From positions 1-34,092 of IMG/VR virus record IMGVR_UViG_3300032088_000038: a stretch of DNA of 34,092 nt; one strand, given 5' to 3'. The translations under genes and the position numbers were made by a program. Each line of letters opens with the position of its first letter. Within the stretch, counting starts at the first letter, position 1. The stretch is from a virus. The notes under the pieces are model-generated. The model saw only the letters and a list, made by a program, of their open reading frames with translations, was not told the origin of the DNA and ran no database searches. Shown one piece after another: positions 4,670 to 29,276 of the stretch.

Positions 4670-6445
4670 TTAGTACCTCCCTTTAGAATCTCTACGCATC
4701 TCATGCCCTACAGCCAAAGCGGGTAAAGGGTTGTGGGAATGTAGGTCTGCTTTCTCACCAAAGGTAGCAGCGTTTATAATAGTAGCCTTTTGGTACCTGT
4801 ATCCCAATCTTTGCATCCAGTTAGGGTTTAAGAGGGGAGTTCTTGTGGCAGAAGCCATAACCGGGGTTAAGCGCATAGGACTACCTGTTGCCTTAACTCG
4901 GTTAATACCTTGTTTTTTTAAGTCTTCAGCTACTCTTTTAGTTATCCTAGTTCCAGGTAAGTGATTTCCATGGGTGGAAGTTAAGACTTTACCTACACTC
5001 TCTTTAGTGGCTAACTCAGAACCCTTACCATCAAAAGCTTTTCGTATCTGAGATACTGATACAACGTCTCCAGGTACAAAGCCTGGAAGACCACTATCTA
5101 CTTTGACGTAATTGAGTTGACTTTTGGCTAAAAGCTCCAAGTGCCTTGGGTCCACATCCTTACCACTGTCTGAGTATACATTACGGAGAGATTTCATTAG
5201 GTATTCCCTGCCGGCCCCAAGACCCTTGTGTTTTATAACATCATCGGGAGCAACTATTCCTGTAGCTAAGGTGTCACCTGCCTCTAACCTCTGACCTTTT
5301 TTAACATGCAGCTTTCTACCCGGGGGTACATAATGTTGTGTACCTTCAATATCTAAATCGAACCCCCCTTGAGGAGCCTTAGTTATGGAGTTAACTTTCC
5401 CAGTCATTTCAGATATAGGCGCTCTTTGGAAGAAGTTTTTAGGCACTTCTATAAACTGCTTAAAGGCTGCTAAGCCTTTTGGTGTTTGCACATCACCTTC
5501 GACTAGGGAGACCCCATGCTTGGCACTTAGGGCCATCTGGGTTAGAGGCTCTGATAGAGACTGAGCTGACCTAATACCTACGTTTTGCCCTATGGCATAT
5601 GACCTACCTCTATTATTAACTCCCATACATTTTTGACAGACACCGCTCTCCAAGTCACAGGTCATAGGGGATCTTACGCGTATAGACTTACCGGCCCTGG
5701 CTATGTTAGCGGCCTCCTTACCCCCTATCAAAGAACCTGCCGTAGTGTATCTACCTTCTACCGCGTTATCCCCCGCATCAAACATAATACCGTTTTTAGT
5801 ACCGCAGTCAGCAGATGATATTACCTGTTCACTCATAACAGAAGCCAGTACCTTTTGCATCTCCCCAGGCTCTGCAGTGCCTAACTGACCTTTTATAACC
5901 TGGGATCTACTTTCATCACCTGCTATCCAAGCCTCGGCAGGAGATAAACCCTCCGAGTAACCCCTTTCTATTAAGAAAGGAACAGGTGAGCCATCCCAGT
6001 CACCTACTATACCCGGGCTACTAACCATCTTCATGAGCTGGTTCATATTACCCCTACTACCAGACCTAGCCATCATGCCCATATCTCCGGGATGTTTAGA
6101 TGTTAAGTCTCGTAATTTAGTCTGAGTGTCTAATAAGATAGACATCTTTTTCTTATGGTTACTACCAGCGGTTCTTAGTAAACGTTTAGCATTATTTATT
6201 ATAGGGTTACGTTTATTATACTCGGGCTCTATATCATCCAGACCTACAGATATACCTTCAAAGGTTGAAAATTCATCACCTAATTTCTTTATTTTAGGAG
6301 CTACAAACTTATAAGACTCAGGGCTATCTTTAGCTAATCTAAGCATAGAACTCTTTAGGTTCTTAGTGGTCAGAGGACCACTTATCTTATAGTCCGTAGG
6401 TAACTTATCATTTACTAAAATGTCAGCTAGTTTACCACGTATCAT
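4670..6445 (-). CDS. RNA polymerase beta' C-terminal subunit (bridge helix, trigger loop)
   Basis: This 591-residue protein matches the second half of bacterial RpoC. A bridge-helix-like segment (ARSGSRGNMNQLMKM, about 126-140) precedes GIVGDWDGSPVPF. The second beta' zinc site is present: Cys214 (ADCGTKNGI) and Cys263, Cys270, Cys273 (TCDLESGVCQKC). The trigger loop follows at 297-312 (SLSEPLTQMALSAKHG). His310 aligns with the conserved trigger-loop His, while the Met-Arg pair of E. coli (TMRTFH) is replaced. The C-terminal NAATFGEKADLH block matches the RpoC C-terminus (SAASFQETTRVL). It is much shorter than the corresponding RpoC part and must complement the fused subunit encoded at 7874-12244. 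It has a good TAGGAG RBS. Minus-strand neighbours are probable virion genes. Confidence 0.92.
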   Translation of the reverse strand: MIRGKLADILVNDKLPTDYKISGPLTTKNLKSSMLRLAKDSPESYKFVAPKIKKLGDEFSTFEGISVGLDDIEPEYNKRNPIINNAKRLLRTAGSNHKKKMSILLDTQTKLRDLTSKHPGDMGMMARSGSRGNMNQLMKMVSSPGIVGDWDGSPVPFLIERGYSEGLSPAEAWIAGDESRSQVIKGQLGTAEPGEMQKVLASVMSEQVISSADCGTKNGIMFDAGDNAVEGRYTTAGSLIGGKEAANIARAGKSIRVRSPMTCDLESGVCQKCMGVNNRGRSYAIGQNVGIRSAQSLSEPLTQMALSAKHGVSLVEGDVQTPKGLAAFKQFIEVPKNFFQRAPISEMTGKVNSITKAPQGGFDLDIEGTQHYVPPGRKLHVKKGQRLEAGDTLATGIVAPDDVIKHKGLGAGREYLMKSLRNVYSDSGKDVDPRHLELLAKSQLNYVKVDSGLPGFVPGDVVSVSQIRKAFDGKGSELATKESVGKVLTSTHGNHLPGTRITKRVAEDLKKQGINRVKATGSPMRLTPVMASATRTPLLNPNWMQRLGYRYQKATIINAATFGEKADLHSHNPLPALAVGHEMRRDSKGRY

Positions 6446-7627: not shown

Positions 7628-7881
7628 ACACTAATACCCGTATTAGAATTAGTTTCTAGTTCCATCTTATCTCCCCAAGTAGCAGAACTAGATCTCTCAG
7701 AGCTATCTAGTATATCAGTAGTATTACGTACTTCAGCATCGTCTCTAACCAAGGAATCTAGTTTCTTAGTTAGCTCATCTACCTCTGTGGTACCTGAGCC
7801 TACAGCCTCTATTTTCTGAGATAGCTTAATAAAAGCCAGCCGCTTACCTAAAAGGTAGGCCTTTCTAAGGTTACTACTCAT
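7624..7881 (-). CDS. Small charged helical protein following the RNAP fusion
   Basis: The start at ATG 7881 (MSSNLRKAYLLGKRLAFIKL, 85 residues) is chosen because it overlaps the RNAP stop by eight bases (ATGAGTAG), the usual coupling arrangement here. An upstream in-frame ATG at 7902 would add seven residues inside the RNAP gene. It is helical, with a basic start and acidic C-terminus, and begins with the AY..GKR.A pattern. It could be an RNAP accessory subunit by position only; there is no detectable similarity to omega or alpha. Confidence 0.7.
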   Translation of the reverse strand: MSSNLRKAYLLGKRLAFIKLSQKIEAVGSGTTEVDELTKKLDSLVRDDAEVRNTTDILDSSERSSSATWGDKMELETNSNTGISV

Positions 7882-10800
7882 TCTCAATCTCCACGGTGTC
7901 ACTAGTATTAACTTCGCCTCTACGGTAAGCTGCTAATGCATCTCTAGTAGTTTTGAATTTTTTAACTGGGGCCCCTGATTTAGCTTTAGATTGAGTTGCT
8001 TTGAATAACCCAGCCATAGCTTCCTGTTTAGGATAAGCCAGTATAGTGTTCTTATTCCTGTCACCTAGGACATTGTTAGACAGTAACATTTTCTTACTGT
8101 CATTAACAGCTCCTTCCGTAACGGGAACATGCACTTGTAAAGCATCTCCATCATAATCCAGATTCATACCGTCCTCCATAAAGGGATTAACCTGTATAGT
8201 CTTACCTGCTACTGGCTTAGGGTTGAAAGCTATCATGTTAAACCTATGTAGGGAAGGGGCTCTATTAAGTATAACAGGTCTCCTCTTAGACTCTACCATT
8301 AACTCCTCTCTAGCTATAGAAGACTTATTATCCGTGAGCTCTTTAGCGCGTATAGCACCATGCCCTCTCTTAACTAAATTCTTAACTACGAAAGGCGCAT
8401 ACATAGACCACATCATTTCTTCAGGTAGACCTACTTCGTCCATACCTAAGCTGGGGTCGGGAGCAGCAGTACCTCTACCTGTAAAGTCTAATCTACGGGC
8501 TAAAACCTTACCGTTGAAAAACCCTGTTTTAGTGCCTGTGATAGTATTAACTATCCCCTTTACCTGCTTAGCCGCAAGGTTACTAGAGACTGGAGGCCTG
8601 GTACCTATGACCGCCCCAGCAGCTTCCGCGACGTGTTTACGCATGTCCCCCACATCTTTATCTGGAAGACCTAAGTCCTTAGCCTCTTGTAATTTTTCCT
8701 TGGCTAGTATTAAATCTTTATATACGTGGTTTATATCTGATATGAGCAAATCCCCCTTAGCCCCTGGAACTATAGGTCTTAATTTAGGAGGGAGAACCGG
8801 AAAAGCCTTCATAGTGTAAGCATCACCTGCTTTAAGGCCTGTATCTTTTAACGCACTTAAGGCTTTTATCTGCTTGTAGTAGTTATCCTTATCAGAACCT
8901 TTTTTTGTCTTAATTCCTTTTTGTAATTCTTCTAACTTGTTATCTATGTTTATAGAGTTAAGCTGGGTTTTTATACGATCACCCCCCTTCTCGGCGATTT
9001 GGGAGACTAGCTGAGACTCTGTTAAACCCAGTAAGCGCCTACTCGCGTCTGTAAATATAGGATTAACAATAGGTTCCGGAAGTTCTATGTGTGTCCATTT
9101 ATTACCTATAACCCCCCCTGTCTTGCCTATGTCAAACAAGCCCCCTGACTCGCTCTTCAGATTCTTAGCAAGAACCATTCGGCTGTTCTGTATCTCCCCA
9201 TTAGATACGTCCCTAACTTCTTTATCAGTCATAGGGGACAAGGTCATGTCATTACCTTTCTTCTTAAATCTAAGACCGGCTCCGGCTAGCATGCCTTTAA
9301 ATTTATCGAAAGCAAAGCTGGACTTAGGAGGGGGTAATGGTCTACCTAACTGAAATGCCCGCCAATACTCCGTATTCCTAGTGCCCTTAAGGATAGCGTT
9401 CTCCTTTAGTACATCTCTTGCGTCATGGGCTAATAAAGCATTGATCTCCATGGTACCTGTTCCTTTAGCCCCAGTAACACCTCCTTTACTAGGGGCGTCA
9501 TGCAGATCATAACCGCCATCTAAACCCCTAGCCGCATAATTAGTATCTGCGGATTTAAATAGTTTGTAGGTATATTGAGGACCTACCATGATACCTGGTA
9601 TTTTTTTACCAGTTATAGGATCAAACACAGTCTCCTTGTCCTTAACCCCATTCTTTTTCATAAGATCCCTAACCCACTTTACATTATTCCTTTTTTTAAA
9701 AGAGGGTATGGCTATAGGCTTACCGGTTTTCTCAGCCACCTTAGCTGCGGCAGTCTCTATGACTTGTGACGGGTTTATTCTACTAACAACCCCTAAGGAA
9801 CTCCATAGTATATCTAAGGGCTTACCTGCCTCATCCTGAACCATATCAGAATCATCTATTATCTTACTGATAACTCCTTTACCTCCGTACCTGTTACTAA
9901 CCTTATCTCCCATCTTCAGCTTCTCGATACTCTTAACAACTACTGTTGTTCTCTTACCCTCCCTCTCTACCGCTACTACTTCCCCATCGGAGCTCCTATC
10001 CCATACATCACTAGCATCTGAATACTCCTGCCTGAGGGACTTATGTACCTTACCTAATATTCTGTTCTCAACAGAAGGAGTTCTTTTTCGGAGAACAGTA
10101 GCTATTGGGTCACCTATCTTTAGCTTGGCCCCAACCTTAACTACACCTTTATCTAGATTAGAATATTGATCTTTAGTAAAAATTCTAGGGAAATTAGCTG
10201 AGTGCTTATTACTACTTATAGACGTATCTCTATCATCCTCAATAACAAACTTATGCATGTTAATAGAAGCCATTCGTTCAGTAGCTCCCCTACTCATAAC
10301 TACAGCATCATTTGAATTCAGGCCATGGTACGCTAAATAGCCTACTTTCAGATTTCTACCTAGAGCTAGTGTTCCGTCCTTAGTAAAGTTTGTATCCATA
10401 AGTAGCTGGTCTTTTTTTACTGAATCTCCCACCTTCACCTTAGAGTAACCGTCTAGAAAAGTCTTGGAAGCTAAGGGCATATTATGAGGTACCTCAACTT
10501 CTTGAATTACTCCCCCCTTACCTTCTACTATTATCTTATCTTTAGTAACGCTCTTTACTGTACCCGCCATAGACGCCCTCATAGCGTGTGTAGAATTAAG
10601 TCCTACAATGCTCTCTACTGAGGAGCCTTCATCCTCTCTGTCTAAGAAGGCACCAGACTGAACCAGAGGCCTCTCTCTATTTAGGAGAGGCATTGCCTGA
10701 CCTACCATCTTAGCACCCATTATAACACGGTTTCCCTGAGTACTATCTAGTAAGGGGACTAAATTAGTACTGATAGTGTTCATGTCTATAACGCTATTTA

Positions 10801-12244
10801 CGTCATAATCCACATCTTTAGGTTTTACCTTACGTACTGTACCTCTAACCATAGCATCTACGTTGCCAGACTTAGTGTCCTGGTTTGGGAAAGCCACTAC
10901 TTTACTAGCTATGTCTCTAGCCGCTACCGTTTCGAACTTACCCGTCTTAGCATTTTTCATAGTAGCATATAAGTTACCCTCCTCATCCCGCCTAGCCCCT
11001 AAGGTAAACCTTTGGTCAATACCCATGTTACCTGACTCAGGGGTCCTGAAGGCATCTATAATACCCAGCATGGAACTATGTAACTTTCTAGCTGAAGCCG
11101 GCACCGCTCTGTCGCTAGAGATACCTCCTTCTCCTAGTCTAGTTACAGATAAAGCACTGTCCATTATTTCCACTGGATTTATCTGAGAAGGTAAACTTGC
11201 TAGTTGGGCGGAGCTCAAGAAACGTTTAAGCTCATTACTAGTAGCCGTAGTAGGCATAACCTTACTTATATTAATATTAGGACTTAGATCTAGTTTATTC
11301 CTAACCTTCCACTGTATTTCTCTAGCCTTAAGCTGCAGTCGCTCTTTAAAAATATCTTCTGGCCCCATAACTTTTTGGAACTCTAAACTATCTCTCTGAT
11401 CTTCTTCCTCTTCTCCCCGGTACACCTTTAATAGTTTCTTACTAGCAGTTAGTAAAGCCTCAGGTGTTACCTTAGAAAATCCTTTACGCAACGTAGTTTT
11501 AGTAGTCTCTGAGTCTAGTTCGGTGTTGTCGTAGGCCCTGAGTATAGCCTGGGCTTTATCTGCCCTAGCGGAGTGGTTACCCTGTTCCGCCTTAGGCACC
11601 ACCTTAGCATAGAGTTTATCTACTGCAGAACTAACATTGGAGCTAGAGCCGTACATATCTTTATTTCTATTAGTTAAGTCTTTACCCCAGTACTTAGAGA
11701 TGTCGTTATCTTGTAAGCCCATCTCTTTTAGTATGGGGTACATAGGTATTTTAGAGCTACCATACTCCATCTGCATACCACCTTTTTTAGTGTTCATACT
11801 AAGACGGAAGTTAGCACCCTTAGCCAAGTTGAAACTAGACTCTAGCTCATCACTACCTCTTTTGCGTGTATACACCCCAGGCCTTGTCCTTAGTTGGTGC
11901 TTCAAGGCATACTCATTTCCGTTTACTACAAAAGTATTATGGTGAGTCACCCTAGGTAAGTGCATGACTGTGTGTCCTTTCTTACGAGACACTACGTTAC
12001 CTTGTTTGTCTTTAACTACAAGGTTGGCCTTAATAGGCTCGTAGATAGAGCCTCCTTTAAATAGGGCTTTTTTGTGGTCGGCAAAACTCATACCTCTTTC
12101 TTTGACTGTAAAATCCTCAGCCTCTATGGTGTGGTGAGTACCTAGTATGGGGAACAAAGACTTAACTCCCTCTAGGGTTTTCTCCCTTAGTAATTTTTGT
12201 CGCTGCTCTGGGGTTACGAACAAAGGTCTTACCTTATTAGCCAT
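7874..12244 (-). CDS. RNA polymerase beta / beta' N-terminal fusion subunit
   Basis: This single 1456-residue protein covers beta and then the first part of beta'. Beta signatures: LGRNLKVGYLAYHGLNSNDA (628-647), the catalytic-lysine segment GDKVSNRYGGKGV (779-791), LGVVSRINPSQVIE (817-830) and the C-terminal TGTMEINALLAHDA (929-942). Beta' begins near 1020: GLFDIGKTGG then HIELPEPIV, AFPVLPPKLRPIVP (1147-1160), LARRLDFTGRG (1248-1258), RPVILNRAPSLHR (1322-1334) and the metal-binding NLDYDGD (1361-1367), equivalent to NADFDGD. The three catalytic Asp are intact. Beta is about 350 residues shorter than E. coli RpoB, and the beta' N-terminal zinc ribbon is missing between GLFD and HIEL. No alpha or omega is visible. 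The remainder of beta' is encoded at 4670-6445. The RBS is weak. Confidence 0.95.
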   Translation of the reverse strand: MANKVRPLFVTPEQRQKLLREKTLEGVKSLFPILGTHHTIEAEDFTVKERGMSFADHKKALFKGGSIYEPIKANLVVKDKQGNVVSRKKGHTVMHLPRVTHHNTFVVNGNEYALKHQLRTRPGVYTRKRGSDELESSFNLAKGANFRLSMNTKKGGMQMEYGSSKIPMYPILKEMGLQDNDISKYWGKDLTNRNKDMYGSSSNVSSAVDKLYAKVVPKAEQGNHSARADKAQAILRAYDNTELDSETTKTTLRKGFSKVTPEALLTASKKLLKVYRGEEEEDQRDSLEFQKVMGPEDIFKERLQLKAREIQWKVRNKLDLSPNINISKVMPTTATSNELKRFLSSAQLASLPSQINPVEIMDSALSVTRLGEGGISSDRAVPASARKLHSSMLGIIDAFRTPESGNMGIDQRFTLGARRDEEGNLYATMKNAKTGKFETVAARDIASKVVAFPNQDTKSGNVDAMVRGTVRKVKPKDVDYDVNSVIDMNTISTNLVPLLDSTQGNRVIMGAKMVGQAMPLLNRERPLVQSGAFLDREDEGSSVESIVGLNSTHAMRASMAGTVKSVTKDKIIVEGKGGVIQEVEVPHNMPLASKTFLDGYSKVKVGDSVKKDQLLMDTNFTKDGTLALGRNLKVGYLAYHGLNSNDAVVMSRGATERMASINMHKFVIEDDRDTSISSNKHSANFPRIFTKDQYSNLDKGVVKVGAKLKIGDPIATVLRKRTPSVENRILGKVHKSLRQEYSDASDVWDRSSDGEVVAVEREGKRTTVVVKSIEKLKMGDKVSNRYGGKGVISKIIDDSDMVQDEAGKPLDILWSSLGVVSRINPSQVIETAAAKVAEKTGKPIAIPSFKKRNNVKWVRDLMKKNGVKDKETVFDPITGKKIPGIMVGPQYTYKLFKSADTNYAARGLDGGYDLHDAPSKGGVTGAKGTGTMEINALLAHDARDVLKENAILKGTRNTEYWRAFQLGRPLPPPKSSFAFDKFKGMLAGAGLRFKKKGNDMTLSPMTDKEVRDVSNGEIQNSRMVLAKNLKSESGGLFDIGKTGGVIGNKWTHIELPEPIVNPIFTDASRRLLGLTESQLVSQIAEKGGDRIKTQLNSINIDNKLEELQKGIKTKKGSDKDNYYKQIKALSALKDTGLKAGDAYTMKAFPVLPPKLRPIVPGAKGDLLISDINHVYKDLILAKEKLQEAKDLGLPDKDVGDMRKHVAEAAGAVIGTRPPVSSNLAAKQVKGIVNTITGTKTGFFNGKVLARRLDFTGRGTAAPDPSLGMDEVGLPEEMMWSMYAPFVVKNLVKRGHGAIRAKELTDNKSSIAREELMVESKRRPVILNRAPSLHRFNMIAFNPKPVAGKTIQVNPFMEDGMNLDYDGDALQVHVPVTEGAVNDSKKMLLSNNVLGDRNKNTILAYPKQEAMAGLFKATQSKAKSGAPVKKFKTTRDALAAYRRGEVNTSDTVEIENE

Positions 12245-18444: not shown

Positions 18445-19197
18445 ATGGGTTACACTTTACCTAGAAAATACCTATCTGCATCACAAATAACCAAATACTT
18501 GTCATGCCCCCAGCAGTATTATAGACAATATGTCTTAGATGAAAGACCCGATACACTTAGGCCCGTGTCTATGTCCGTAGGGTCTTCAGTGCATAAGTTA
18601 GTAGAAAATAAACTATGCGGTTTAATAAGCGGAGCTGATTTAACCGAGGCTGAGCTATATCAAGAGACTAATTTAGGGGCTTTTTTTGAAGGAAGTGACC
18701 TAGAAGAACAAGAACCTGAGTACTGGACCAATTATGCGAAAATTTTGTACAAAACCTGGTATAAGGGAGTAGGTACGTCCATAATGCCTGTAGAATCCGA
18801 ATTGAAGTTCGAATCTTTGGTAGGAGACGTACCAGTTCTAGGGTACATCGACTACATTGATGCTAGCTCAGGTAAGTTAGAGATATGCGACCTAAAAGTC
18901 GTTAAGCGCTCTAAGAGCGAGGCTGATTGTAGGAATAGCGTGCAGCTAGCCATGTACGCTATCACACAGGAAAATTCTTGTGTGAGATTTGATAGTGTAG
19001 TAAAAACAAAAACTCCTAAAGTAGGTGTGTCTCGATACACATTTACTAAGTCAGAATTAGGGTATTTCACTGACTTGATAGGAGAGGTAGCTACAAACAT
19101 TAGTGCTGGTAATTTCCCTATGACCAGCCCTACTCAATGGGTATGCGCCCCTAAGTGGTGCGACCATTTTTCAACCTGCAGAGGAGCAGAAAGATAA
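18445..19197 (+). CDS. Cas4/RecB-like PD-(D/E)XK nuclease, copy 1
   Basis: This 250-residue protein starts with SASQITKYLSCPQQYYRQYV and VGSSVHKLVE (His50), then GYIDYID (Asp136), DLK (Asp149, Lys151) and QLAMYA (Gln167), the RecB nuclease-domain order. One N-terminal Cys (Cys21) and three C-terminal Cys (234, 239, 245) are placed as in the iron-sulfur cluster of Cas4/AddB. It likely processes DNA ends. It follows the SF2 helicase by ten bases. No CRISPR array or other Cas gene is present. Confidence 0.88.
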   Translation: MGYTLPRKYLSASQITKYLSCPQQYYRQYVLDERPDTLRPVSMSVGSSVHKLVENKLCGLISGADLTEAELYQETNLGAFFEGSDLEEQEPEYWTNYAKILYKTWYKGVGTSIMPVESELKFESLVGDVPVLGYIDYIDASSGKLEICDLKVVKRSKSEADCRNSVQLAMYAITQENSCVRFDSVVKTKTPKVGVSRYTFTKSELGYFTDLIGEVATNISAGNFPMTSPTQWVCAPKWCDHFSTCRGAER

Positions 19198-19199
19198 AT

Positions 19200-20297
19200 A
19201 TGGACATTAATTTTCCAACAGTAGATGCGACAGCAATCAAGCGTCGTTACGTGTTAGTAGACCTTGATTCTCTAGAGTACAAGACTCCTGGGGATACAGA
19301 CATTCTTCAGAGCCGTGAGTTTTATGGTACTGAAGAAGAGATTAGTTCCATGAAGGAATCTATCCAAGCAAAGGGTCTCCTAGAGAGTCCTATCGTCATG
19401 GATAATGACGAGGGTAGTGGCTACAGAGTACTAGAGGGCAATCGTCGTTGTCATGTACTCAACTTGTTGGTAGATGAGGGTATTGTCGCTACGGATAGTG
19501 GTAAAGCTCTAACGAAAGTTAGAGTGGAGGTACAACCTAGTATCAATGCTATAGTGGAAGATACCTTTCAAGATTGGTTTAGTTTAAACCAAGAAGTTAG
19601 CGAAGAAGTTCAGGCTGAGTGTCGTGCACACATCCGAAAGCAAGTTCAGTTAGAGCTTGGCCAAGATGCTATGATCCGTAACACCCAGCGTTTGAACTGG
19701 TCTGCGATAGAACAGGCTCGTCAAATCAAGCTGCAGATGGATGGCGGTACTTCCCTAGAGACTTGTTCTAAGAACTTTGGTCTGGCCGTACAGACCATTA
19801 AGACCCGCCTCTCTCTACTCAGTAAAGAAGCGGAGATGCCTGAGGTAATTCAGGCAGCCGAAGAGGAAGAGATCACTATTAGCGTTGCTAAGCTCATCGC
19901 TAACGTTAAAGACGAGGATGCCCGTAGTGAGATCTTGGAGACTGCTAAAGGTTCGAATGAGGCTAAGCCTACTACGGACGAGGTTAAAGAGCTCATTGAC
20001 ACCAAGCACAACGAGAACGTTGCCGCAGGCGGTGAAGGCATCAAAGCCCAAGATCGTAAGAAGCGTGCGGTGAAAGCACCCAAGACAGCGGTTCGCACCA
20101 GCGAAGAGCTGTTGGAGACTGTTCAAAGTTTGGCGGCTACTCGATTGGTGTTAATCGCTGATAGTGAGAATGCAGTTAGTGAGAACGCAGCTTTGGATCT
20201 TAAGGTAGCAATCCAGGTTCTACAATGGGTGCTGGATCCTAAAGATGACAATGATTTAGAGACTATCGTGCTTGGGGAAAACTCAGACGAGGATTAG
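19200..20297 (+). CDS. ParB-like nuclease-domain protein
   Basis: The start is set at ATG 19200 (MDINFPTVD, 365 residues), with AGGAG in the end of the preceding gene. An upstream in-frame ATG lies inside that gene. Residues about 15-95 resemble the ParB/Srx fold: a VDLDSLEYKT strand, GTEEEISSMKESIQAKGLLESPIV, then the EGNRR box (79-83). A helix-turn-helix-like segment (SLETCSKNFGLAVQTIKTRL) follows, then an acidic helical tail. No ParA is seen, so plasmid-type partition is not supported; a DNA-binding replication or transcription role is possible. Codon use (cgt, atc, gag) is unlike most neighbours. Confidence 0.8.
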   Translation: MDINFPTVDATAIKRRYVLVDLDSLEYKTPGDTDILQSREFYGTEEEISSMKESIQAKGLLESPIVMDNDEGSGYRVLEGNRRCHVLNLLVDEGIVATDSGKALTKVRVEVQPSINAIVEDTFQDWFSLNQEVSEEVQAECRAHIRKQVQLELGQDAMIRNTQRLNWSAIEQARQIKLQMDGGTSLETCSKNFGLAVQTIKTRLSLLSKEAEMPEVIQAAEEEEITISVAKLIANVKDEDARSEILETAKGSNEAKPTTDEVKELIDTKHNENVAAGGEGIKAQDRKKRAVKAPKTAVRTSEELLETVQSLAATRLVLIADSENAVSENAALDLKVAIQVLQWVLDPKDDNDLETIVLGENSDED

Positions 20298-20977
20298 GTG
20301 CTCTCTGGGTAATGATAGGATAGCCATAGACTTAGCTTATCTAAGGCGTTAGATCTTATTTGTCTTACACGTTCAGAGGATAAACCTAAGTCTTTACTCA
20401 TAGTACGTAGGGAACTGGCCTTAGCTTCGGGATCATGTAAGCTAAAAGATCTGGTTATAATATAACGCTCTCGATTGGAGAGGAATCTTAGCCATATCTG
20501 AGCTATGACTTTACGTTGTTGAGACTCTAGGTCTTCAAGCAGATCTACCTCATAGGATCCTTCCGATAAGCAAGAATCATCTTCGTACTGGCTTTGAGGC
20601 TTAGAAGAGGGGGTTCTGACCAAACCGGAAAAGGTTTTACGCATAGTCATCATAACCCAGTGTCCTGCATAGGTGCAAAACCTAGTTCCATATGCAGGGT
20701 TGAACTTGTCCAAGGCTAGAACCAAACCTACGTTACCATTGGCTATCAATTCACCTAGTAATTCCGGGTCTTTACGATCCCACATGGTCTTAGCCATACT
20801 GAATACTAAGCGAAGATTGGACTCTAAAATACGGGTCTTTAACTCTTGTTTGCGAGACACCAATGTGCTATCTTCATGATACTCTTTTAGTAAGGAATCT
20901 TCTTCCTTGCGAGGAAGTATTTCAACTTTAGAAAGGGCTTTATAATAGATGTCTAGTAAGTCAGCTTCATCGGTCAA
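20294..20977 (-). CDS. Sigma-70 family RNA polymerase sigma factor
   Basis: This 227-residue protein has region 2 (ELIANGNVGLVLALDKFNP, then GTRFCTYAGHWVMMTMR, about 76-113) and a region 4 helix-turn-helix (LRTMSKDLGLSSERVRQIRSNALDKL, about 190-215). It lacks regions 1.1 and most of region 3. It would direct host RNA polymerase core to phage promoters; whether it can bind the phage RNAP is unknown. It is on the strand opposite to its neighbours. Its stop overlaps the ParB-like stop by four bases (convergent), and its 5' end overlaps the next plus-strand gene. RBS GAGGAG lies about 13 bases before ATG. Confidence 0.9.
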   Translation of the reverse strand: MTDEADLLDIYYKALSKVEILPRKEEDSLLKEYHEDSTLVSRKQELKTRILESNLRLVFSMAKTMWDRKDPELLGELIANGNVGLVLALDKFNPAYGTRFCTYAGHWVMMTMRKTFSGLVRTPSSKPQSQYEDDSCLSEGSYEVDLLEDLESQQRKVIAQIWLRFLSNRERYIITRSFSLHDPEAKASSLRTMSKDLGLSSERVRQIRSNALDKLSLWLSYHYPEST

Positions 20978-22186: not shown

Positions 22187-22984
22187 ATGTCTCGTTTTTT
22201 TAGCTCAGGAGCTATAGAATTTGGGCCTTGGAGCCCCAGTAAAGCAGGAGTACTCAAAGAGTGCCCGTTAAAGTTTATTTGGCAATATGTTGAGAAACCT
22301 AAGTTATCCGCTGATGAGACTAGAGTTAGTGACGACCTACCTCTAGTCATGGGCTCAGCCGTACATAAGTACGCTGAGCACCTAGTTAATGGCATACCCT
22401 CCCATGAGGCAGAGGCGGACGCCTTTAAAGAAGTACCTCTTACTAGACGTAATAAACTTACTATACGTAGTCAGAAAAGAGGAATAGCCTCATTTGAAGA
22501 CAGAATGAGCGCTTTTAAAGGTAAACATAAAGTTATTCTAGATTCGGCTGAGTTACGCCTAGCCGTAATGCCTGATCTAAAATCTACAGAGTTCTGGAAC
22601 AACAGGTCAGCACTTAGAGGTATACTTGATAGACTTATAATAATAGAGAAGGGCGGTCAGAAGCACGCCATAGCTATAGATATAAAGACAGGTAGGGAGA
22701 GGCCTATAGATACATACTCCCTACAATTAGAATCATATGGGGTATTACTGCATAGTGCATACGACTTAAAATCAGTTTCCATGGCAGCTTACTTTTCAAG
22801 CACAGGCGAACTGGTGTGGCATTCTAGAAAAGTAATGAAGTCAGATATTGTAGCTGATAATCCTGTATTCACTACTATAAATGAGCTGGTAGAAACCATA
22901 GACCCTAGCGGGTATAAGGTAGGTAGGCAATGTAATTGGTGTAATTACAAACTACTTTGTGAGAAAGAGAGGGACTCTCTGTGA
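22187..22984 (+). CDS. Cas4/RecB-like PD-(D/E)XK nuclease, copy 2
   Basis: This 265-residue protein has WSPSKAGVLKECPLKFIW, MGSAVHKYAEH (His60), GILDRL (Asp148), IDIKTGRERP (Asp165, Lys167) and LQLESYG (Gln180). Cys26 together with Cys249, Cys252 and Cys258 form the four-Cys Cas4/AddB cluster pattern. It is only distantly similar to the nuclease at 18445-19197, so the two are old paralogs or separate acquisitions. A clear AAGGAGG precedes the start. The end overlaps the primase-helicase start by four bases. Confidence 0.88.
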   Translation: MSRFFSSGAIEFGPWSPSKAGVLKECPLKFIWQYVEKPKLSADETRVSDDLPLVMGSAVHKYAEHLVNGIPSHEAEADAFKEVPLTRRNKLTIRSQKRGIASFEDRMSAFKGKHKVILDSAELRLAVMPDLKSTEFWNNRSALRGILDRLIIIEKGGQKHAIAIDIKTGRERPIDTYSLQLESYGVLLHSAYDLKSVSMAAYFSSTGELVWHSRKVMKSDIVADNPVFTTINELVETIDPSGYKVGRQCNWCNYKLLCEKERDSL

Positions 22985-25900
22985 AAGACCTTCCTGTAAA
23001 GAAGTTATGGGAGGATATATCTCTATCCCAGTGGAAAGATATACTTACTCAGATAGGGGCGGGTAATTCTTGGAAGATTAAAGGTAGGTCTTTACACGGC
23101 AACTGTCCTTTCCCAGGACATAGAGATGCTAGGCCTTCCTGTTGGATAGTACCTGATAAGGGGTTTGTTAAATGCTTCGGTTGCCAGAAGTATCAATCTA
23201 ACGCCTTGTTATTTATTAGCCAAGTAGGAAAACTTAGCTGGAGTGGGGCGGCTAGGCTACTTAGGTCTAAGGGTGTTAAGACTTTCCCTAAAGCAGTAGA
23301 AAAGAAGCTAGCGGAAGAAGAGATCAGGCATGCTACTAAGGAAGAACTGTTCTACGCCTGTAATAAAGCCTTGGTTGAAGCCTCAGAGAATAGAGATGAT
23401 CAGAAATATTTATTTGCGCAAAGTTGTATCAAGTACTTAGAATCTAGGGGCATTTCCGCAGATACATTCAAGAACCTACCTATAGGAGTATTACCTCCAG
23501 GGGTAATGCTAAACCAGCATGTACGTAGGACTCAGGAAGTATATAACTATGCAAAGCCCGTACTAACACCTAACTACATAGGCGCTTTAGTATTCTGCTA
23601 CCACAAAGCTCCTTCAGAAATAAGTAGGTTTAAGGTGAGAGCAGACTTCATGCGGCAGAACAAAGCATTGAAGGATGAGCAGTTCATACCGGACCCAGAG
23701 GAAGACGGTATTGGATTTCTAGGATTAAAGAACTTTATGGGTAGTATGGGTAAACCCTCTGCTGCAGGGTTACCTGCTGTACTAGTTGAGGGTGAGTTTG
23801 ATGCCTTAGCCCACCTAGTTAACTACCTGAAGGGTATAACCTATGACATTGTGCTGGGTGTAGGCGGAGCTGGTTCATCTAGCCCCGATCTACTTAGAAA
23901 GACCTGCGGTATAACCAAGCTGTTGATAGTTGCAGATCATCCTGATCATGGGGGAGATGGTATAGCTAAATCCCTTATAAAATCTACCAGCTTATCCTGT
24001 AAGGTGTTCGACTGGCCAGAAGAGGTAAAGGCTAAAGACCCCCATGAAGCTATAGCTATACATGGGTGGGCCACCTGGATAGCAGCCTTAAATAAGCTCC
24101 TGCCTACCCAGACTACTGTAACGGAGAGGGCTAACTTCATATCAGCACACAAGTGGCTTATTGCCCAGACCAGAACAGATATGGAGAAGATAGATAAGGA
24201 CGATGTTGCGGAGGTAAAACGTATAATAGCGTCCAACGGATCTTGCCTTAGAGATCCCGATAGTCAAAGGCTGTACTGTATAGAAAGTAGTAAATTTGTG
24301 CCGCTGTCCTTAGGTACATTGTTGGAGCTAGTTGTAGGACAAGATGATAGTGAAGAGGGCTTTGTGTCTAGAATAACGCAAGCTCTAGCAGACGAGATAG
24401 TATTCATAGGTATAGAAGGGGTTAACTCTACTGAAAGTATAGTGAGGGGCTGGAGTAGAAAGACTAAGACTCCCTTAGCTTGGAGGGTAAGTAGAGTAAA
24501 TGAGTTATTAGGTAAGTTAGAATCAGAACTAGGTCCAGCAGCTGACTGGGTAAAAGGCAACGTAGGTATACCTAGACGATTAGCTTCTAGGAAAGTAGGG
24601 AAGAACACGGTAGCCCTAAACCTTATAGAACTAAATGCAAAGATGGAGAAGTACCTAAGGTTTGCTGTAGGGAGGATAATAAGGGGATTGCCTTCAATAA
24701 CGGGATTAGATGAGATGAAGGCCGGTGCTCACTACTTGAAATTATCTTTCTCAGAGGATGGTTCTGGGGAGGAAGAAGACTGTTGGGCTATAGTTAATGG
24801 GTACGATGTATATATAGGTAGATTTACTGAGGGCGGTATAACTTGGTTCATGCTAGACGGCCCTAAAGTGGGTAACTATACGTTTGATGTAGTAAAGAAG
24901 CCTTGGAGCAAGATAATAGATGGCTGTGACACGTTGCAGAGTGGATCACAGGTTGATCTAGAGGAGACCTATGATTTCTTAGTATGTGCCATACACAACT
25001 CTTGGACACTCAAAGGAGGGTTAGAAGACGCGGAGTACATAGCGGCAGCTATTATGTTAACCCCAGTAACAGGGTGTCTACCTCACCCCCTGTATACTAT
25101 GCTAAATGGACAAAGGGGTTCGGGTAAGTCAAAGCTGTTAGGTTTAGTTGGAGGTAAGGACCCTAGGTTCCGTTTATTAGAATCTACAATAGACATACCA
25201 GCTAGTTACACAGCGGCCGGTACTAGGAAAGACGTTAACCGTTGTGGCCTAGGGTTAGTACTAGATGAGTTCGAAGATACAGGAGATAACCGCCAGAGTA
25301 GGATGGTTCGAGAAATACTGATAGATATTAGAGAGCTAACCTCTAGTCCGTCTGCTAAGATAACTAGGGGTAATGCTGAGAGCAAGGAGGTAACTGAGTA
25401 TATCATCAAATCTATGATTTGGTGCTGTGGTATCCAGTACCTTAGGGATGAGGCTGACATATCCAGGTTCATGCAATTTGAATCTGTACGTAAGGAGGAC
25501 CATCCTGAGCCGCACTTAAACCTCATGCAATTATTTGGGGCTGAAACACTAACTCATTTTAAGAGAAACATAAGCTTAGGTATGTTCTCTAGAACTCAGG
25601 AGTTACGTAAGAATATACAAGAGTTGCAAACATACTACCATAAGCAAGAAGTCCGAGATACCATATCGGCTTACGCAGGTATATCTACGGTACCCACTCG
25701 ATTGTTGGATAGTATAGTAATAACTTCAGCGCTAATTAAGCTGGTTGGTAGGGACCCTCACTCCTATATAAAGAGAGTGGTTAGTAAGAAGATAGGATTG
25801 ATAGATAGGATAACAAGCTCTACTCACGCTAAAGATCTGTTAGATCAGATACTATCAGCTAGAGCAGAGTTAAAGAGGCCTGGTTCTGACTCTAGGACTA

Positions 25901-26262
25901 CTACTATAAGGACTATACTAGCGGATAAAACCGATAGACATAAGCTGAGGGATCTAGACTGCGGGTTAGCATATACGCAGTATACTAAAACCAACTCAGA
26001 TAAGACCTTAAGCGTAGTAAAGGTCTTAGTTGTTATGTGGCCTGATGTTCTTCAAAACATACTTAGCAAGGTACCTAGATTTTCTAAAGAGAAAACAGGT
26101 AGGTTAAAACGAATGGGTGATTCCAGTGATAACTCACTTAGCTACCATACTGTTAGGAAGAAGATAGGGGATATTAAAGGCATACTGCGTCCTGGTATAA
26201 CAAGTAGTGATGTGACTTTCTATGATATATCAGAGATACTAGATGAATGGGATAATTTATGA
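22981..26262 (+). CDS. Primase-helicase
   Basis: This 1093-residue protein joins a DnaG-type zinc finger (Cys42, His47, Cys65, Cys68; NCPFPGH and CFGC), a TOPRIM domain (VEGEFDA, Glu270; ADHPDHGGDG, Asp319 and Asp322) and a P-loop ATPase (Walker A GQRGSGKS 710-717; Walker B LVLDEFED near 759-766). It would lay primers and unwind at the fork. The ATPase lies after a long insert (about 370-650), so it is larger than T7 gp4. The start is GTG 22981, overlapping the nuclease stop. The stop overlaps the polymerase ATG, consistent with a replisome operon. Confidence 0.88.
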   Translation: MKDLPVKKLWEDISLSQWKDILTQIGAGNSWKIKGRSLHGNCPFPGHRDARPSCWIVPDKGFVKCFGCQKYQSNALLFISQVGKLSWSGAARLLRSKGVKTFPKAVEKKLAEEEIRHATKEELFYACNKALVEASENRDDQKYLFAQSCIKYLESRGISADTFKNLPIGVLPPGVMLNQHVRRTQEVYNYAKPVLTPNYIGALVFCYHKAPSEISRFKVRADFMRQNKALKDEQFIPDPEEDGIGFLGLKNFMGSMGKPSAAGLPAVLVEGEFDALAHLVNYLKGITYDIVLGVGGAGSSSPDLLRKTCGITKLLIVADHPDHGGDGIAKSLIKSTSLSCKVFDWPEEVKAKDPHEAIAIHGWATWIAALNKLLPTQTTVTERANFISAHKWLIAQTRTDMEKIDKDDVAEVKRIIASNGSCLRDPDSQRLYCIESSKFVPLSLGTLLELVVGQDDSEEGFVSRITQALADEIVFIGIEGVNSTESIVRGWSRKTKTPLAWRVSRVNELLGKLESELGPAADWVKGNVGIPRRLASRKVGKNTVALNLIELNAKMEKYLRFAVGRIIRGLPSITGLDEMKAGAHYLKLSFSEDGSGEEEDCWAIVNGYDVYIGRFTEGGITWFMLDGPKVGNYTFDVVKKPWSKIIDGCDTLQSGSQVDLEETYDFLVCAIHNSWTLKGGLEDAEYIAAAIMLTPVTGCLPHPLYTMLNGQRGSGKSKLLGLVGGKDPRFRLLESTIDIPASYTAAGTRKDVNRCGLGLVLDEFEDTGDNRQSRMVREILIDIRELTSSPSAKITRGNAESKEVTEYIIKSMIWCCGIQYLRDEADISRFMQFESVRKEDHPEPHLNLMQLFGAETLTHFKRNISLGMFSRTQELRKNIQELQTYYHKQEVRDTISAYAGISTVPTRLLDSIVITSALIKLVGRDPHSYIKRVVSKKIGLIDRITSSTHAKDLLDQILSARAELKRPGSDSRTTTIRTILADKTDRHKLRDLDCGLAYTQYTKTNSDKTLSVVKVLVVMWPDVLQNILSKVPRFSKEKTGRLKRMGDSSDNSLSYHTVRKKIGDIKGILRPGITSSDVTFYDISEILDEWDNL

Positions 26263-29200
26263 AGCCAGCAAAATGCATACATTGCCCTCTATATAGAAAC
26301 AAATTAATACCTTCTATAGGAGAGACGTTAGATGCTGAGGTAGTATTCCTACTAGACTCCCCACCCAGTTTTGCCAAATCCCCCTTAGCAGGTAATGAGG
26401 GGGTTATCTTAAAAGAAGTGTTGGACATAGCCTCCCGGGAGGACGTATCTGGCAACACCTCTAGGCTTATTAATAAAGCTATGTACATGTACTCAGTTAC
26501 ATGTGCTAGTGATTTAGAGTCTAAGGTAAAGCTGATAGATAGATGTCGAGATAGTGTAGGAGCTCAGCAGATCCTTAATTCCGGAGCTAAGGTAATAGTT
26601 GCCTTTGGGGCTAAACCACTTTCTTTCTTCGGTATTAAATCTCAGCATAAGGAGGCTAGGGGAGGTGTTCTCGACGTAAACTTCCTAGGTAGAGATATAA
26701 AGATAGTAGTTACTTTCGCCTTGTCGGGGATAATGAAGAAGCCAGGACTTACTAACTTAGCGGCAAATGATATACAGAAAGCTACTAAGTTAGTTAGAGG
26801 GGAGTCATTAGACTCTATGGATGTACCTGCTCTACTAGCTGGGTATGAAATACCTTCTACGCTTGAGGAGGCTATAGACATAGCTAATAGGTACTCTGCT
26901 TACAAAAAACCAGGTAAAGATATGTCTTCTAGCATGATGGCTTTAGACTATGAGACTAATACCCTATTTCCCCACTACGAGGGGTCCAGGGCCATAGCCA
27001 TTTCAGGAGCAGTAGAACCAGGTAAGGCATTCGCCTTGTTTATAGACCATAAGGATAGCCCTTATGGCTTCACGCAGATAATACCTTACATATGGAAAAT
27101 ACTACAAAGCCCCCACCCTAAGACATGGTGGAACTATAAGTTCGACTATGGGGTTACTAAGTACACCCTAATTAGGCAAACTAAGGAGGCCATAGAGGTA
27201 AACCCCGAGCTAGTACGTAGGATAGAAGAGGTAGTAGGTAAAGGCCTAGAGGAGATATTTAGTAACCCAGTAAACAATACTAGGTGGGATGGTATGTTAG
27301 CAGAGCACATGCTAGATGAGAACAAAGCAGGCCACTATAGCTTGAAGCAGGTTGTTCTAAACCACTTCCCTTCCCTGGCAGGCTACGAGAAACCTTTACA
27401 TGTACAGCTAAAGGACGGAGACTCTACTAAAACTCAAGACAAGGTGTCTAGGGCCTGTTCCCTCCAGGATGGTCTTGTGGAGAATAACTCCCCCGTAGGA
27501 TATACGGGGGACTTACTGGGGGAGATAGCCACCTTGCAGAACTTGTCTTCTAAACTAAAAAAGATGAGTAAGAAGAAAAGCACGCCAGAAGAAGTAAGGT
27601 CTACCGCTGAGGATACAGTAGTAATCCTTAGTAATAGAACTAAGTATATAAAGAAGGTAGATAAGGCGATTAAGGCGCTCATAAAAACATCGGATAAAGT
27701 ACAATTTGATATTAAGTACAAAAACCCCCTAAGGTCAGGTACTACTTTTGAAGAAGTTACTACAGATGTAATGATGCCTTATGCCGCTATAGACGCAGAT
27801 CTTACCCTAAGGATTAGCATTAAGCAGAGAAAAGCGGCCTGGAAAGAAGACCCTAAGTCACTAGCTGATAAGGAAGGTAGGGGGTACATGATGTCTCTCA
27901 TGGATAAGCATTACCTACCGCTTACTGAAATTCTGTGCGATATGCAGAATGAGGGCATTCGTATGGATAGGGAATATCTACTTAAGGAGTATAATAGGCA
28001 AGCCGCTAAGGAAATAGAGTTAGAGCTAAATTTAGTGGAGAAGATAGCTAAGGATTTAGGTAGGGAAGAGAATAGTATAGTACTACATAATCCAGCAGAA
28101 GTAGCTAATATAATGGTGGCCGGTTATGGACTACCCAAAGTAAAGTATACGGACTCCGGTGAAACCTCTAGTGATAGTGAAGCTTTGAGTATTTGGGGTA
28201 AAACTCAACCCATAGCTTTAGATATATTAGAATATAGAAATACCGCCAAAGCCAAATCCACCTACTTAGAGAACCTTATAACTCTATCTGATTACGATGG
28301 GTTTATAAGAGGCTCCCTATGGTTAAACGGTACTGCTACTGGTAGGTTATCTTCTTCTGATCCCAACTTACAGAATCAACCACCAGAGGTAGCAGGTACT
28401 CATATTAAAAAGGCTTTCTCCACTACGGATACCTCTGAAGGTAGATCAGAGTGGGACAGTTATTTAATGGATAGGTACAGATGGGAGGAGAATGAAGAAT
28501 TATGTGTTGTGGATTTGGACTATGCGGGAGCAGAGGTTAGGGGTTTAACGGTGTACGCCCAAGACCCAGCCTTGCTTAATGCTCTCAATGATGGGTTAGA
28601 TATGCATAGTTGGGTAGCTAGTATAGTCTTTGAACTAGATTACGAGGAGATAGACAGGGCGAGGAAGATAGACTCGGTGAAGAGAAACTCTGAGGAAGAG
28701 TTTCTAGTTACTAAGAGAAAACACGCTAAAGCGGTAGTGTTTGGTCTCTTGTTTTGTATCAGTGCCCCTAAGCTAGCTACACAGCTAAGTATTCATGTCC
28801 GGGAGGCGGAATCATTGATGCGTATGTTCTTTAAAAGGTTCCCTCGTATTAATGATTATATAACTTACACCAAAAGCCTGGTGCTCCATAAAGGAGTACT
28901 CCGCACCCCGACTGGCAGGGCCCGGAGGTTTCCCTTAGCAAGAATGGGGGGTAGTATAGGATCGGCTTGTGGTAGACAGGGGGTAAATTACTTGGTTCAA
29001 GGATTCACCTCTGAGATAGTTACTAGGACTCTCATAGAGTTAAGTAAACACATGAGTAAAGTGCGGGGCAGGTTGATGATTACTGTGCATGACAGTATTG
29101 TATTTGAGATGCCCAGAAGCTTACTACCTAGCTTAGATGGGTTCTTCAAAATGCATGTTAGGGACTTTATACAAAGAGAGTTCCCCGTGGTTCCGGTGGA

Positions 29201-29276
29201 GCTACCTTACGATATAGAAGTAGGCCCTACGTACGGTGAAGCCAAGTATAGTGTAGAGGCCTACACACAAAAATAG
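26259..29276 (+). CDS. Family A DNA polymerase with N-terminal UDG-like domain
   Basis: This 1005-residue protein has three parts. Residues 1-165 resemble family 4/5 uracil-DNA glycosylase: Cys6, Cys9, Cys82 and Cys96 fit the iron-sulfur cluster, with LAGNEGVILKEVL and AKVIVAFGAKPL. However, the usual GEAPG motif is LDSPP and the HPS motif is FALSG, so glycosylase activity is doubtful. The exonuclease domain has Asp230 and Glu232 (LDYET), NYKFD and YAAIDADLT. The polymerase has motif A DYAGAEVR (Asp754), motif B K824...F828 (KAVVFGLLF) and motif C HDS (His944, Asp945). It is the replicative polymerase and last gene of the operon. Confidence 0.93.
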   Translation: MKPAKCIHCPLYRNKLIPSIGETLDAEVVFLLDSPPSFAKSPLAGNEGVILKEVLDIASREDVSGNTSRLINKAMYMYSVTCASDLESKVKLIDRCRDSVGAQQILNSGAKVIVAFGAKPLSFFGIKSQHKEARGGVLDVNFLGRDIKIVVTFALSGIMKKPGLTNLAANDIQKATKLVRGESLDSMDVPALLAGYEIPSTLEEAIDIANRYSAYKKPGKDMSSSMMALDYETNTLFPHYEGSRAIAISGAVEPGKAFALFIDHKDSPYGFTQIIPYIWKILQSPHPKTWWNYKFDYGVTKYTLIRQTKEAIEVNPELVRRIEEVVGKGLEEIFSNPVNNTRWDGMLAEHMLDENKAGHYSLKQVVLNHFPSLAGYEKPLHVQLKDGDSTKTQDKVSRACSLQDGLVENNSPVGYTGDLLGEIATLQNLSSKLKKMSKKKSTPEEVRSTAEDTVVILSNRTKYIKKVDKAIKALIKTSDKVQFDIKYKNPLRSGTTFEEVTTDVMMPYAAIDADLTLRISIKQRKAAWKEDPKSLADKEGRGYMMSLMDKHYLPLTEILCDMQNEGIRMDREYLLKEYNRQAAKEIELELNLVEKIAKDLGREENSIVLHNPAEVANIMVAGYGLPKVKYTDSGETSSDSEALSIWGKTQPIALDILEYRNTAKAKSTYLENLITLSDYDGFIRGSLWLNGTATGRLSSSDPNLQNQPPEVAGTHIKKAFSTTDTSEGRSEWDSYLMDRYRWEENEELCVVDLDYAGAEVRGLTVYAQDPALLNALNDGLDMHSWVASIVFELDYEEIDRARKIDSVKRNSEEEFLVTKRKHAKAVVFGLLFCISAPKLATQLSIHVREAESLMRMFFKRFPRINDYITYTKSLVLHKGVLRTPTGRARRFPLARMGGSIGSACGRQGVNYLVQGFTSEIVTRTLIELSKHMSKVRGRLMITVHDSIVFEMPRSLLPSLDGFFKMHVRDFIQREFPVVPVELPYDIEVGPTYGEAKYSVEAYTQK

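Follow-up and report, generated by a model that had tools for sequence, protein, structure and literature searches.

A phage family-A DNA polymerase with an N-terminal homologue of family-4 uracil-DNA glycosylases that keeps a predicted [4Fe-4S] site and may have lost its uracil chemistry

The N-terminal domain (residues 1–185) of the family-A DNA polymerase encoded in a 34,092-nucleotide stretch of viral DNA (IMG/VR record IMGVR_UViG_3300032088_000038, hereafter the window) is a homologue of the family-4 uracil-DNA glycosylases (UDG4). The explanation that best fits the comparisons, which we hold with slightly better than even confidence, is that the window lineage has lost both uracil excision and uracil reading while keeping the fold and a predicted [4Fe-4S] site, and that the domain serves the replicase as a non-catalytic Fe-S module with a UDG fold, gripping DNA beside the polymerase. 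The UDG4-PolA architecture is already known and widespread, as in SPO1, PaBG, SM1, and phiLo (PDB 9qhs). New here are a cluster site that is invariant throughout a family in which all of the uracil chemistry appears to be lost, a replacement loop, and a comparison of the loss states across lineages. No paper on a state in which the cluster is kept and the uracil chemistry is lost was found in the literature searched, which mostly excluded subscription journals.

Organization of the polymerase gene and homology of the N-terminal domain

The polymerase gene (26259..29276, plus strand) starts with ATG and encodes a protein of 1005 amino acids, in which the UDG4-homologous N-terminal domain, a 3'-5' exonuclease, and a PolA polymerase domain follow one another in a single frame, as in other phage UDG4-like/PolA fusions. 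The polymerase domain (PF00476; 27987..29237, plus strand) was matched over residues 577–993, and its catalytic residues D754, E759, K824, H944, and D945 are intact. The match to the 3'-5' exonuclease was weak; D230, E232, D296, Y508, and D512 are intact in this region (26823..27890, plus strand), and the catalytic residues of both activities were invariant in the family alignment. The exonuclease domain is interrupted between exo motifs II and III by an insertion of approximately 130 amino acids consisting mostly of long helices (residues ~373–500; 27375–27758). In cellular Pol I, a 5' nuclease sits N-terminal to the exonuclease, whereas the window polymerase has the 3'-5' exonuclease, lacks the 5' nuclease, and carries the UDG4-like domain in that place. 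The full-length model matched Klenow-type polymerases from residue ~190 onward; such chains dominated the structure matching, which gave no placement of the N-terminal domain relative to DNA.

A primase-type gene with a DnaG zinc ribbon and a Toprim-like region (22981..26262, plus strand) lies immediately upstream, and its stop codon and the polymerase start overlap in a 4-bp ATGA. The same replication region holds two exonuclease genes of the PDDEXK (phrog_69) type, possibly paralogues (18445–19197 and 22187–22984, both plus strand). The window also encodes a multisubunit RNA polymerase of unusual layout (7874–12244 and 4670–6445, both minus strand). A 1456-amino-acid protein combines β (Rpb2 domains 2, 3, and 6) with the N-terminal half of β' (Rpb1 domains 1–2) and carries the active-site motif NLDYDGD at residue ~1363, and the C-terminal half of β' (Rpb1 domains 4–5) is a separate protein of 591 amino acids. 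A β match in a similarly long frame (1449–1497 amino acids) was observed in 13 of 15 related records. A sigma-70-like factor with regions 2 and 4 (20294–20977, minus strand) is encoded alongside the phage RNA polymerase genes.

Both sequence and predicted fold place the UDG4-like domain at residues ~1–185 (26259..26813, plus strand), with its end at ~183–185. A preliminary description made from the sequence alone had proposed a UDG-like domain fused to PolA and ending at position 26755; the fusion and the homology held, but the domain runs further, to ~26813. A phmmer search with residues 1–204 alone retrieved the T. maritima UDG4, TM0511 (PDB 1l9g and 1vk2, E=1.9e-6 and 2.4e-6, respectively), and a profile built from eight family members matched TM0511 at E=1.9e-10 over residues 5–178, followed by type-4 UDG and UdgX chains. 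The NCBIfam type-4 UDG model matched all 15 family members, the window domain among them (E=5e-6). The Pfam UDG model recognized seven of these 15 (lowest E 2e-11) and missed the window copy, and therefore standard annotation overlooks the domain. Searches of Pfam-A and PHROGs with the isolated window domain gave no match, so that the homology was seen only via NCBIfam, PDB sequence, and profile searches. Since a tblastn search of phage records with the domain yielded weak matches only (E 0.4–0.9), wider relatives were reached from other seeds.

An AlphaFold2 model of the domain was obtained from a 15-sequence alignment (pLDDT 75, pTM 0.74), in which residues 1–20, including the CxxC, mostly had pLDDT values below 50. 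A Foldseek search of the PDB with this model gave 36 matches at E<1e-3, all of them to UDG4 or UdgX; the predicted fold is thus that of UDG4/UdgX and not one unlike UDG. VIA-align 2 gave Z scores of 16–18 over ~160 residues to TM0511, Tth UDG, Sto UDG, and UdgX, and of 13.1 to the family-A DNA polymerase of phiLo (9qhs). In BFVD, the same fold was found inside many phage DNA polymerases.

Conservation of the cluster site and loss of the uracil motifs

Four cysteines, which are the sole ones in the first ~200 residues, aligned with TM0511 and bore out the earlier assignment of Cys6, Cys9, Cys82, and Cys96 as family-4 cluster ligands. Cys6 and Cys9 form the CxxC of predicted [4Fe-4S] ligands 1 and 2 (26274..26285), and Cys82 (26502..26504) and Cys96 (26544..26546) are predicted ligands 3 and 4, all on the plus strand and each invariant in the 15 members. 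The family-wide invariant positions include K2, P3, C6, C9, P35, Y78, C82, C96, and T152.

The GEAPG, Asn, and HPS columns, which we take from established knowledge of the UDG superfamily to be the catalytic and uracil-reading sites, have all been replaced. At the former motif A (residues 32–36; 26352..26366, plus strand), the window has LDSPP where UDG4 has GEGPG/GEAPG, and the other members mostly have xxxPP; a family-specific PPx[W/F] loop occupies this site in almost every member. The former HPS motif (residues 152–156; 26712..26726, plus strand) reads TFALS in place of TFHPS, with the catalytic-site His changed to Ala, and A, S, G, or P occupies this position in all 15 members. Both substitutions had been noted in the preliminary description. 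A third loss had not: Tyr78 (26490..26492, plus strand), located four residues before the third Cys here as in TM0511, replaces the uracil-recognizing Asn in 15 of 15 members. This family-wide loss of catalytic residues supports the earlier suggestion that the domain is now non-catalytic. Continued glycosylase activity, directed at a different base and using different catalytic residues, would be compatible with the invariance of three residues of the old pocket (Pro35, Tyr78, and Thr152), and Brig1, which has a different substrate, has UDG4 as a close structural homologue (PMC11078745). However, no UDG4 catalytic residue is kept family-wide, the Asn and His are absent from 15 of 15 members, and the pocket motifs hold no alternative conserved acid or His; we regard such activity as highly improbable.

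Within the domain, the other members are 24–54% identical to the window copy. The four cysteines showed zero entropy across the 15 members and were among the most conserved positions, whereas conservation of the pocket-motif stretches did not exceed that of randomly drawn positions (a fraction of 0.09–0.39 of the random sets had values as low). The constraint on the domain is therefore not for uracil chemistry. The dN/dS of the domain was 0.02–0.05 in those close pairs whose dS was usable, distant pairs being unreliable owing to saturated dS. This strong purifying selection, together with the intact polymerase and proofreading residues, indicates that the domain is retained and not decaying, and the newly conserved PPx[W/F] loop that stands where motif A was lost argues for a changed role rather than decay. 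That the domain is a vestige being lost would agree with its being the fastest-diverging part of the polymerase in distant pairs (24–53% identity, compared with 39–69% for the polymerase domain), but it is disfavored by the purifying selection, the invariant cysteines, and the new loop, and its probability is considered practically negligible.

UDG4-like domains in other phage polymerases

The closest known counterparts differ from the window domain in characteristic ways. The family-4 UDGs of T. maritima (TM0511), T. thermophilus, and S. tokodaii share the fold, the four cysteines, and the motif order; the window domain differs from them in lacking GEAPG, the uracil-reading Asn, and the HPS His, and in being joined to a polymerase. 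UdgX (family 7), which gave the top-ranked structural matches (Z ~17), is a UDG4 derivative that has lost ordinary uracil release and has a His that crosslinks to DNA. UdgX has retained the three columns (motif A, Asn, and HPS) that are absent from the window domain. The PDB still labels UDG4 proteins 'Phage SPO1 DNA polymerase-related protein'.

The solved structure of the Thermus phage phiLo DNA polymerase (PDB 9qhs, 2026) has a UDG4-like domain N-terminal to the exonuclease and polymerase; phiLo keeps all UDG4 motifs, unlike the window, and the two polymerases are only distantly related. SPO1 gp31 and the Herelleviridae polymerases carry a UDG4-like domain at the N terminus of PolA (TIGR00758, E=2e-31) with the opposite loss, since SPO1 keeps the His and all of its cluster cysteines are gone. 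The cultured Pseudomonas phage SM1, whose record already notes pfam03167 UDG and pfam00476, is in the same state as the window, with four cysteines kept and the Asn and His lost, but its polymerase belongs to a separate lineage. PaBG gp205 (L038:5605-8703) and its group were published as UDG-exo-PolA (PMC7412058). In our alignment, PaBG has none of the Cys ligands or catalytic motif residues, and neither a PDB sequence search nor NCBIfam found a UDG in its N-terminal half. Because the ligands and the catalytic residues are both missing from the alignment, the published role of PaBG in uracil removal appears doubtful.

Searches from several seeds and BFVD located the UDG4-like/PolA architecture in many phages; seven or more of the forms found are catalytically intact, and several others appear to have degenerated independently. 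All motifs are intact in phiLo, vir526, ctfzr933, Rctr197k, and Brevundimonas MaInes, as well as in Rhizobium RHph_TM39 (motif A GEAPA; polymerase in the next gene) and ctLwi270 (motif A GEALG; polymerase in a separate frame). The window family and Pseudomonas SM1 retain the cysteines but not the Asn or the His; PMBT14, Serbin, LysYB2, and BSTP12 retain the cysteines and the His but not the Asn. In SPO1, EalM-132, 3-521, PaBG, and the Desulfofustis phage, all or most of the cysteines are gone. A partial motif state was seen in phiXF1 and Huwbert, and MelJY34 keeps the catalytic residues and has lost the cysteines. Catalysis was thus lost in several separate polymerase lineages in which the domain is still present. 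On the polymerase-domain tree, the intact/lost label requires six changes, and well-supported branches make four of them necessary for the intact group. Repeated loss is therefore probable, the exact count being unsure owing to long-branch placement.

A related arrangement was observed in the PolIII-alpha of the Pseudomonas phage nickie (L085:1621-5013), which has a degenerate UDG4-like C-terminal domain (E=4e-19 to type-4 UDG). Type-4 UDG matches like that of nickie were also obtained for hairong, phiK7B1, and Nican01.

Candidate roles of the domain

The preliminary description had suggested that the domain may sense uracil, which would matter if the phage DNA contained uracil or modified bases. 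A sensor that reads ahead for uracil or a modified base in the template without excising it would resemble the archaeal PolB uracil pocket or UdgX, which binds uracil-DNA without ordinary excision (PMC5295032). Several other phages with a UDG-PolA polymerase have thymidylate synthase/hydroxymethylase or deazaguanine genes alongside. The present data do not support uracil sensing in the window family: the uracil-reading Asn is the invariant Tyr78, and the pocket motifs are conserved at the domain background. In the 15 related virus records, all of which are fragmentary, thymidylate synthase/hydroxymethylase, dUTPase (two families), and PTPS were not found; the fragmentary state of these records and the 34-kb length of the window record itself limit the meaning of such absences. 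ThyX and dCMP deaminase, which represent dTMP supply, were present in three of the 15. A uracil genome requires that thymidylate synthase/Thy1 and dUTPase both be missing (PMC7824862), and the ThyX carriers therefore argue against a uracil genome in those relatives. A separate intact UDG was not found in the related records, in which PF03167 matched only frames of polymerase length (1046–1075 amino acids). We consider a sensor quite improbable.

In several UDG-PolA phages (L036, L078, L079, L080, L083, and L012), genes for thymidylate synthase/hydroxymethylase, dUTPase, or 7-deazaguanine adjoin the polymerase. A link between the UDG-PolA design and modified DNA is possible; for the window family this is a lead and not evidence.

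The other suggestion of the preliminary description, that the domain serves as a structural clamp, is plausible. The module is probably a DNA-holding or structural element. A family-4 UDG domain would have been captured by a phage PolA and placed N-terminal to the exonuclease, and its four cysteines would bind a cluster by which a loop in contact with DNA is stiffened. The basic domain may then grip template or duplex DNA non-specifically next to the polymerase and so improve processivity or the hold on the template. In 15 of 15 members, the domain carries a positive net charge (+2 to +12), which points weakly to DNA holding. In UDG4, the cluster mainly stabilizes a loop, and Cys-to-Ser changes cost only ~40% of activity (PMC5295032). 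Counting against the clamp are the low pLDDT of the CxxC region, on which the predicted cluster geometry depends, and the lack of the cysteines in SPO1, PaBG, and the lactobacillus phage 3-521, which indicates that the cluster is not needed by every polymerase of the UDG-PolA design.

These cluster-less sister polymerases also argue against a redox switch in which the cluster tunes the DNA affinity of the polymerase through DNA charge transport or oxidative stress. The four cysteines are as highly conserved as such a switch would predict, but the clusters of DNA repair enzymes seldom perform electron transfer and that of UDG4 is stabilizing (PMC5295032), and this role is judged very improbable.

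Docking of a replisome protein would leave a sequence pattern identical to that of DNA holding. The domain could be a protein-docking site or a purely structural scaffold (for primase, helicase, SSB, or clamp) with no DNA role. The overlap of the polymerase and primase genes suggests translational coupling, the constraint falls on the fold and the cysteines and not on the pocket, and a title cited in PMC5295032 reports that the Pyrococcus furiosus UDG interacts with PCNA. On the other hand, the domain is basic in all members, an aromatic loop is kept at the mouth of the old active site, and no partner was identified in the present analysis. We therefore regard docking without a DNA role as rather unlikely and favor the DNA-gripping module.

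The nearest functional analogy to such a module is vaccinia D4, a UDG fold working within a viral replicase: D4/A20 is a polymerase processivity factor with a UDG as a part (PMC5682278). D4 differs from the window domain in belonging to another UDG family, in being a separate subunit, and in serving a B-family polymerase. More broadly, it can be proposed, tentatively and at a little less than even confidence, that phage replicases have captured UDG4 domains at the PolA N terminus and the PolIII-alpha C terminus, repeatedly stripped them of glycosylase function, and kept them as DNA-handling modules. The window family, with its [4Fe-4S] site and new conserved loop, would be the clearest case, in which a non-catalytic glycosylase fold acts as a template clamp built into a replicative polymerase.

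Phage polymerases annotated with a uracil-DNA glycosylase, such as that of PaBG, may excise nothing. The Fe-S version offers a testable way to ask what the cluster does in a phage polymerase, and cultured proxies exist in SM1 for the degenerate state and phiLo for the intact one. If the proposal is true, the fold of a repair enzyme would have been turned several times into a part of the phage replicase, as poxviruses did with another UDG.
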